From a virus: 25,600 nt of DNA. Where the stretch lies: IMG/VR virus record IMGVR_UViG_3300049491_000084, positions 1 to 25,600 of that record; one strand, written 5' to 3'. Positions 1,794 to 3,076 of the stretch are shown here, one piece after another (the first letter of the stretch is position 1; every line of letters begins with the position of its first letter). The notes under the pieces were generated by a model. It was not told where the DNA came from. It was given only the letters and a program-made list of their open reading frames with translations, and made no database searches. The position numbers were made by a program, and so were the translations under genes.

Positions 1794-2174
1794 ATGAATT
1801 TTATGGAAGCTATAGCTCTTGTCCTAGAAGGAAGTAAAGTAAAACGGGAATCTTGGTATTTAGGTAAGTATTTATATAAAAATTTGGAATCAAAAGACTC
1901 CGGTTGTTTAGTTAATGACCCTATACTTTGTCATGAAGGATACTCTTATATGCTTAACACAGCTGATTCAACTGCTAATGACTGGGAAATTTATCAGGAA
2001 CCGGTTATTAAGGAAGAAAATACTAAGACTAATGATAATAACGAATTACTAGAAAATATAATTAAAGATTTAGAGAATTTAAAAGCTGACTATTACACTT
2101 CAGATGTACTTGCTTACATGAAAAGCCAAACAGCAGAAGAGATTATAAGCATTATAAAAGGATATATAAAATGA
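1794..2174 (+). CDS. DUF2829 / Tad2-like protein (possible anti-Thoeris sponge)
   Basis: Residues 1-75 fit the DUF2829 pattern. An opening FMEAIALVLEGSKVKRESW corresponds to the family's F-EA---L--G-KV-R--W. A YLYKN strand, a variable loop and SYMLNTADSTANDWEIYQE follow, the last matching the terminal ADDW-like motif. Tad2 proteins of this family bind the cyclic ADP-ribose signal made by Thoeris defence and block it. Here residues 76-126 form an additional charged helical tail, longer than the usual compact family member. The start has TTGGAG upstream. The stop TGA overlaps the next ATG in ATGATGA, so the two genes are probably coupled. Position among accessory early genes suits a counter-defence role. 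Family membership is fairly likely; signal binding is inference, since not all DUF2829 proteins are proven anti-Thoeris. Confidence 0.65.
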   Translation: MNFMEAIALVLEGSKVKRESWYLGKYLYKNLESKDSGCLVNDPILCHEGYSYMLNTADSTANDWEIYQEPVIKEENTKTNDNNELLENIIKDLENLKADYYTSDVLAYMKSQTAEEIISIIKGYIK

Positions 2175-2777: not shown

Positions 2778-3076
2778 ATGTCTACATATTGTAAAGTAAC
2801 TATTAAATACAAAGATGGCGAATTAGAAATTTGTGATGATGTAGATGATTTATATTACTTACCCTTAGATAATATCTTGCAGGATATTTAATAAGGTATC
2901 TATTAACCCCTGATGTAATTGCCGTATACTACGGCAGCGAATATATGGAATTGAGTGAACTGAAGAAAATAACTTTAGAAGATGTATTTGAAACTACAAG
3001 AAAAGTAGAGGCTATATTAAATGCGAAAAGAGCAGAGAGTTTATTACCAGGTGTGGGAGGAACTAAAGAAGAATAA
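2778..3076 (+). pseudogene. Small gene split by a frameshift
   Basis: The first frame (2778-2891) encodes 37 residues beginning MSTYCKVTIKYKDGELEI and ending at TAATAA. A -1 frame opens at about 2882, just before that stop, and stays open to TAA at 3074-3076. It reads GYLIRYLLTPDVIAVYYGSE, then YMELSELKKITLEDVFETT, then RKVEAILNAKRAESLLPGV. A single -1 shift near 2880-2890 would give one protein of about 100 residues. An ATG at 2945 could start a separate 43-residue product. I see no standard slippery heptamer at the junction, so mutation or sequence error is likelier than programmed frameshifting. No domain is recognised. Confidence 0.5.

Follow-up and report, generated by a model that had tools for sequence, protein, structure and literature searches.

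A divergent short-form Tad2-like protein with a C-terminal helical tail, encoded among the replication genes of a tailed phage

Introduction

The Tad2-like family comprises sponges for immune signals, and the Tad2 proteins described to date bind several different ones. SPO1 Tad2 binds gcADPR, ModTad2 binds His-ADPR, HgmTad2 binds both cADPR and cGG, and SptTad2 binds cGG (PMC12043709; PMC13299392; PDB); the ADPR signals bound by SPO1 Tad2 and ModTad2 differ (PMC13299392). According to a recent review, the gcADPR pocket is formed by the loops beta1-beta2 and beta3-beta4, strand beta4, the loop beta4-alpha3 and alpha3, and cyclic dinucleotides are bound in some Tad2s by way of a beta2-beta5 insertion (PMC12043709).

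The protein considered here is encoded in a stretch of 25,600 nucleotides, hereafter the window, which makes up the whole of an IMG/VR virus record (IMGVR_UViG_3300049491_000084; 25.6 kb, 34% G+C). With SPO1 Tad2 (gp34.65; PDB 8SME, 8SMF and 8WJE) it shares the Pfam family, the modelled fold and the R, W, D, A, D and W of the opening and closing motifs, whereas its domain is shorter, is without the N of W-N-G-K and without W-x-x-S-Q, and is followed by a two-helix tail; SPO1 Tad2 scores 85.8 bits against PF11195, compared with 34.4 for the window protein. The fold is also common to ModTad2 (PDB 9EIB and 8V3E; His-ADPR; Z 8.9 and 30% identity for a structural alignment of 59 residues), which unlike the window protein has W-N-G-K and W-x-x-S and no tail, and to AcrIIA7/HgmTad2 (PDB 8KBI-8KBM) and SptTad2 (8WJD), at Z 8.3-8.8. 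The latter two retain W-N-G-K and W-x-x-S-Q and carry the long insertion linked to cyclic dinucleotides (PMC12043709), which is absent from the window protein.

The best PHROG match of the window protein is phrog_6670, made up of short forms of Lactobacillus phages (e.g. LVP1_g072 of phage P1). These likewise have a short domain without W-x-x-S-Q and an extension at the C terminus, and measure about 120-130 aa overall, although their tail proved unrelated in sequence to that of the window protein in every search made. Two short forms from IMG/VR (L200 and L203, 124-160 aa) also join a short Tad2-like domain, scoring above the Pfam cut-off, to a tail, but they belong to different phages and their tails are unlike that of the window protein.

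Family membership and predicted fold

The open reading frame (Table 1) is preceded by a GGAG ribosome-binding site 7 bases 5' of its ATG, and at its end it overlaps the next small ORF in an ATGA. Its 126-aa product matched PF11195 (Tad2-like, formerly DUF2829) with 34.4 bits (E 3.3e-8), above the curated cut-off of 25 bits, with residues 1-67 aligned to the full profile (1-73 of 73). This was the single PF11195 match in a six-frame scan of the whole record (E 5.9e-10). Against a profile of relatives built without the window protein, the protein scored 31.1 bits, compared with 10.5 bits for the best of 2,000 shuffles. Together, the full-profile match and the shuffle result indicate that the observation is real and not a chance one, and membership of the Tad2-like family is confirmed. 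The similarity to individual proteins is low, with at most about 40% identity to any single relative over the short domain and a best E of only 0.08 in tblastn against phages. Close relatives of the whole 126-aa protein were not found in IMG/VR, and an NCBIfam search returned no Tad2 model, the sole match being to an aminotransferase, far below threshold.

Table 1. Features in and beside the Tad2-like gene (window coordinates)
Feature	Position	Strand	Basis or remark
Gene for the 126-aa divergent Tad2-like (PF11195) protein with its helical C-terminal tail	1794..2174	+	ORF and PF11195 match (E 3.3e-8)
Tad2-like domain, residues 1-68	1794..1997	+	Pfam match to residues 1-67; AF2 model against solved Tad2, Z ~9
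Predicted two-helix tail at the C terminus, residues 80-125 (80-99 and 105-125 helical), after a linker of low confidence	2031..2168	+	AF2 models
Perfect 19-bp inverted repeat with 5-nt loop	1712..1754	.	39 bases before the Tad2-like start codon

An AlphaFold2 model of the single chain, based on an alignment of 58 homologous sequences that included canonical Tad2, had an overall pLDDT of 82. The modelled elements are a helix (3-11), strands 16-18, 27-29, 45-47 and 50-52, a second helix (56-59) and a strand at 64-66; confidence is low in the loop near residues 30-50 and in the linker near 70-79. A Foldseek search of the PDB placed Tad2 structures in all of the first nine ranks. A second-look aligner placed residues 1-68 on SPO1 Tad2, ModTad2, SptTad2 and AcrIIA7/HgmTad2 at Z 8.3-9.1 over 59-64 residues, the best being 8wje_A (Z 9.1, rmsd 2.1, 63 aligned), and the solved structures matched have gcADPR, hisADPR, cADPR and cGG bound. 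In a viral library, the best structural matches were short proteins of Lactobacillus phages Iacchus and Semele, along with proteins named Tad2-like. When canonical sequences were left out and only short forms were aligned, pLDDT dropped to 66 and the model was poor: none of Foldseek's top 50 matches was a Tad2, and in the second look Tad2 came first merely in a tie (Z 6.8) with helical hairpins. The fold assignment thus leans on homology, with no independent blind prediction behind it. A Tad2-type fold for residues 1-68 is nevertheless supported by the model obtained through the homologous alignment. The initial annotation, which had placed the protein in DUF2829 from its sequence, was borne out by the profile search and, as regards the fold of the domain, by the single-chain model, the latter less strongly once canonical sequences were removed.

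Conserved motifs and the ligand-pocket region

Across the 58 aligned sequences, the window protein keeps the invariant columns R18, W21, D58, A61, D63 and W64, and G24-K25 are kept as well. Several near-invariant positions are changed: the N of W-N-G-K is replaced by Y, the W of W-x-x-S-Q by Y, and the S-Q by N-T. The loop after the first strand accordingly reads W-Y-L-G-K in the window protein, where all solved Tad2s have W-N-G-K, and W-(N/S)-G-(K/R) is present in 158 of 160 canonical ORFs. In Tad2s, W-x-x-S precedes D-x-x-A-x-D-W, the S being followed by Q in most; the closing region of the window protein, Y-M-L-N-T-A-D-S-T-A-N-D-W, is without the W-x-x-S that every solved Tad2 carries. This comparison is fairly made only with the solved structures, as the canonical set was gathered partly by the S-Q pattern and its S-Q frequency is inflated. 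The motifs were as the initial annotation had described them, but the match of the closing region to Tad2 is incomplete.

From R18 to W64 the window protein counts 47 residues, against 51-90 (median 66) in the canonical set, and the residues missing from the domain fall within the beta2-beta5 region. With pocket positions inferred from the review and from conservation, the changed positions map to the loops named as the gcADPR pocket (PMC12043709). The window protein scored just 16.1 bits against a canonical-only profile and 31 bits after four short-form relatives were added. In a tree of 51 domains it fell outside the canonical clade, among divergent short forms, with weak support (80/79) and long branches.

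The tail and the short-form relatives

About 58 residues lie beyond the Tad2-like domain. Both predictions, from the 58-sequence alignment and from the shallow short-form alignment, fold this tail as a helical hairpin, with pLDDT about 76-86 for the helices in the first of them. A tblastn search of 50,697 phage records, with E values up to 10 allowed, returned no similar tail, and phrog_14308, of unknown function, gave a weak profile match (E 0.001). In twelve related records phrog_14308 gave no match, but neither did the controls, so its absence there does not follow. Short matches to glucagon/GLP-1 chains (E 0.15 and higher) were taken as chance, and structural matches to Hsp104, FemX, EnvZ and others (Z up to 7.1) were set aside as ordinary helical hairpins.

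The phages with short forms include those of lactobacilli and of gut bacteria, among others, and most short forms carry unrelated tails of 50-100 residues. C-terminal extensions were seen in the short forms of phage P1, Gut-P1, Semele, LP65, LpeD, Bacteroides phage C3_41T2LP and MT835742, as well as in L200 and L203, and these tails are unlike each other in sequence, near relatives excepted. One such group is covered at full length by phrog_6670 (E 1.8e-40 for phage P1). Only 2 of 160 canonical ORFs, in contrast, have more than 25 residues past the final D-W, and the canonical set shows N-terminal fusions instead. The additional helical residues that had been noted from the sequence are present, though a tail is not exceptional, being common among short forms. 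The signature pocket residues are lost across the short forms, and none of the short forms found in this analysis has a solved structure.

Two phages were found to pair a canonical Tad2 with a short form of the divergent kind, 521B (L006 with L002) and that of the L204 contig (L208 with L212), which fits different targets or ligands for the two. Two further proteins (L201:1989-2366 and L204:1551-2204) seem by eye to contain two tandem short Tad2-like domains, of which Pfam scores one per protein.

Two short forms of gut phages (L189:2501-2880 and L190:1501-1890) are about 90-100% identical over their first ~50 bases and over everything from about base 145 onwards, while the middle ~95 bases (residues 19-51) are unrelated and differ in length by 9 bases. 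Two scans for more members yielded no further near copies. From the sequences, the middle has the look of a pocket segment that was exchanged or changes very fast, in the part of the domain that binds the ligand in Tad2.

Genomic neighbourhood

The genes upstream encode a protein without assigned function (163-765), a DenV-like pyrimidine-dimer DNA glycosylase (876-1337; PF03013 E 6.8e-14, phrog_1183 E 1.8e-34) and a tRNA-Met (1543-1617); the phage that carries this glycosylase has no near match among 50,697 phage records. Downstream, a LuxR-type HTH protein (2412-2756) is followed by several unknowns, a PD-(D/E)XK protein and a Sak4-like protein, and further on by a DNA ligase, a DNA polymerase, a primase/helicase, an exonuclease and a DUF3310/MazG-type protein. 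A second contig, taken from a different sample (L009:7839-8053), matches the first 215 bases of the window with its last 215, at 99.5%, and ends inside the gene in which the window starts; judging from this overlap, the two are probably parts of one phage species. A Dda-like helicase was identified on the sister contig as well, with a terminase large subunit further up, encoded by the other strand. The gene content is that of a tailed-phage replication region, from which early expression may be inferred.

None of the neighbours had a convincing match to a counter-defence or defence family in Pfam, PHROG, NCBIfam or PADLOC, though several of them are of unknown function. The PADLOC matches of neighbours to CARF3 (in the HTH part) and PtuB (E 0.0017) were judged to reflect a shared HTH or to be weak. 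The suggestion that this stretch forms a counter-defence island was consequently not upheld, as no other counter-defence gene was found adjoining and the neighbours make up an early replication region.

Several smaller features were observed around the gene. The inverted repeat ahead of it is AT-rich, has no T-run behind it and folds as RNA at -17.3 kcal/mol (z -5.7); it is possibly a regulatory or processing hairpin. The 5' end of the tRNA-Met and the bases upstream of it (ATAAGTTAAATTGCGGGTATA) are duplicated 197 bases upstream (1334-1354 and 1531-1551), and the two copies are separated by an open frame that lacks a usual start codon. Positions 2171-2410, the ATG of which overlaps the Tad2-like stop, read as one coherent small protein split by an in-frame TAA (...GKNSIHSN*VTVSPWLH...), perhaps a broken gene. 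At 2778-3076, two frames (MSTYCKVTIKYKDGELEICDDVDDLYYLPLDNIL / AGYLIRYLLTPDVIAVYYGSEYMELSELKK...) resemble one frameshifted gene.

Discussion

The explanation preferred here, although tentatively and at somewhat less than even confidence, is that the protein is a divergent short-form Tad2-like protein that would bind an immune signal or a defence protein in the manner of its family, the ligand probably differing from that of SPO1 Tad2. Counted in its favour are the full-profile PF11195 match, the gap to the shuffles, the Z of 8.3-9.1, the conserved motif residues that are kept and those that are lost, the shortened beta2-beta5 region, the co-occurrence of canonical and short forms and the L189/L190 exchange; counted against it are the poor short-form-only model and neighbours that give no counter-defence context. 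That the resemblance to Tad2 is accidental and the ORF an unrelated small phage protein would suit the low identity to any one relative and the phage tblastn result, but is highly improbable given a full-length profile match above the cut-off, 2,000 shuffles none of which came near, and a PDB search in which matches 1-9 were all Tad2 structures.

The more demanding question is what such a protein binds. The initial annotation had proposed an anti-Thoeris Tad2, and a true sponge would form a homotetramer with two inter-dimer pockets and, with compensating changes there, hold 1''-3' gcADPR or His-ADPR as SPO1 Tad2 and ModTad2 do and so block Thoeris. The Pfam family and the modelled fold are those of these two proteins, the W of the closing motif is replaced by a residue that is still aromatic, the G-K of the W-N-G-K loop is kept, and the different ligands of SPO1 Tad2 and ModTad2 suggest that the pocket tolerates change (PMC13299392). 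Against this, the S of W-x-x-S, present in all solved Tad2s, has become N, the Q has become T and the loop N has become Y, and the canonical-only profile gave a poor score. The family and fold of the proposal therefore stand, while an anti-Thoeris function appears unlikely; as the W-N-G-K and W-x-x-S of all solved Tad2s are not found in it, the 126-aa protein should not be called anti-Thoeris. Somewhat less doubtful, though still improbable, is that the Tad2-like fold has been reused outside immune-signal binding, for instance in a protein-binding adaptor or an early regulator, with the tail as the partner interface. The loss of signature pocket residues across the short forms would agree with this, as would the many short forms with unrelated tails or tandem domains, which are typical of modular interaction proteins. 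AcrIIA7, which has the Tad2 fold, was deposited as a type II CRISPR-Cas inhibitor, and phrog_643, labelled a transcriptional regulator, matches the window protein weakly (E 0.033) and SPO1 Tad2 at E 0.0008; that label, however, is an annotation and not a test. The exchange of a central segment between near-identical gut-phage genes also speaks against reuse, as it resembles the outcome of an arms race over the ligand region.

For the divergent short-form Tad2-like protein favoured here, the most likely role, on the present analysis, would be that of a small-molecule or partner binder in counter-defence. The gene belongs to a tailed phage and is probably expressed early in infection. Its product may form an oligomer that takes up a small immune signal derived from a nucleotide, or else a defence protein, and so keeps it from the effector, and the tail would most likely stabilise or alter that oligomer. 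The ligand is probably other than that of SPO1 Tad2, and a further ligand is plausible given that known Tad2s bind several different signals.

These observations bear on how the family is annotated. As PF11195 now bears the label 'Thoeris anti-defense 2-like', automatic annotation will name such proteins anti-Thoeris, yet the label also spans a divergent short-form set without the residues common to all solved Tad2s. The segment exchange between L189 and L190 may prove of greater worth than the window gene itself. It is conceivable, if rather unlikely, that the tailed short-form proteins, the window protein among them, constitute a separate branch of phage sponges with a rapidly exchanged pocket and a signal not yet linked to Tad2. 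Should the short forms bind other signals, they would offer a route to immune signals that are not yet known.
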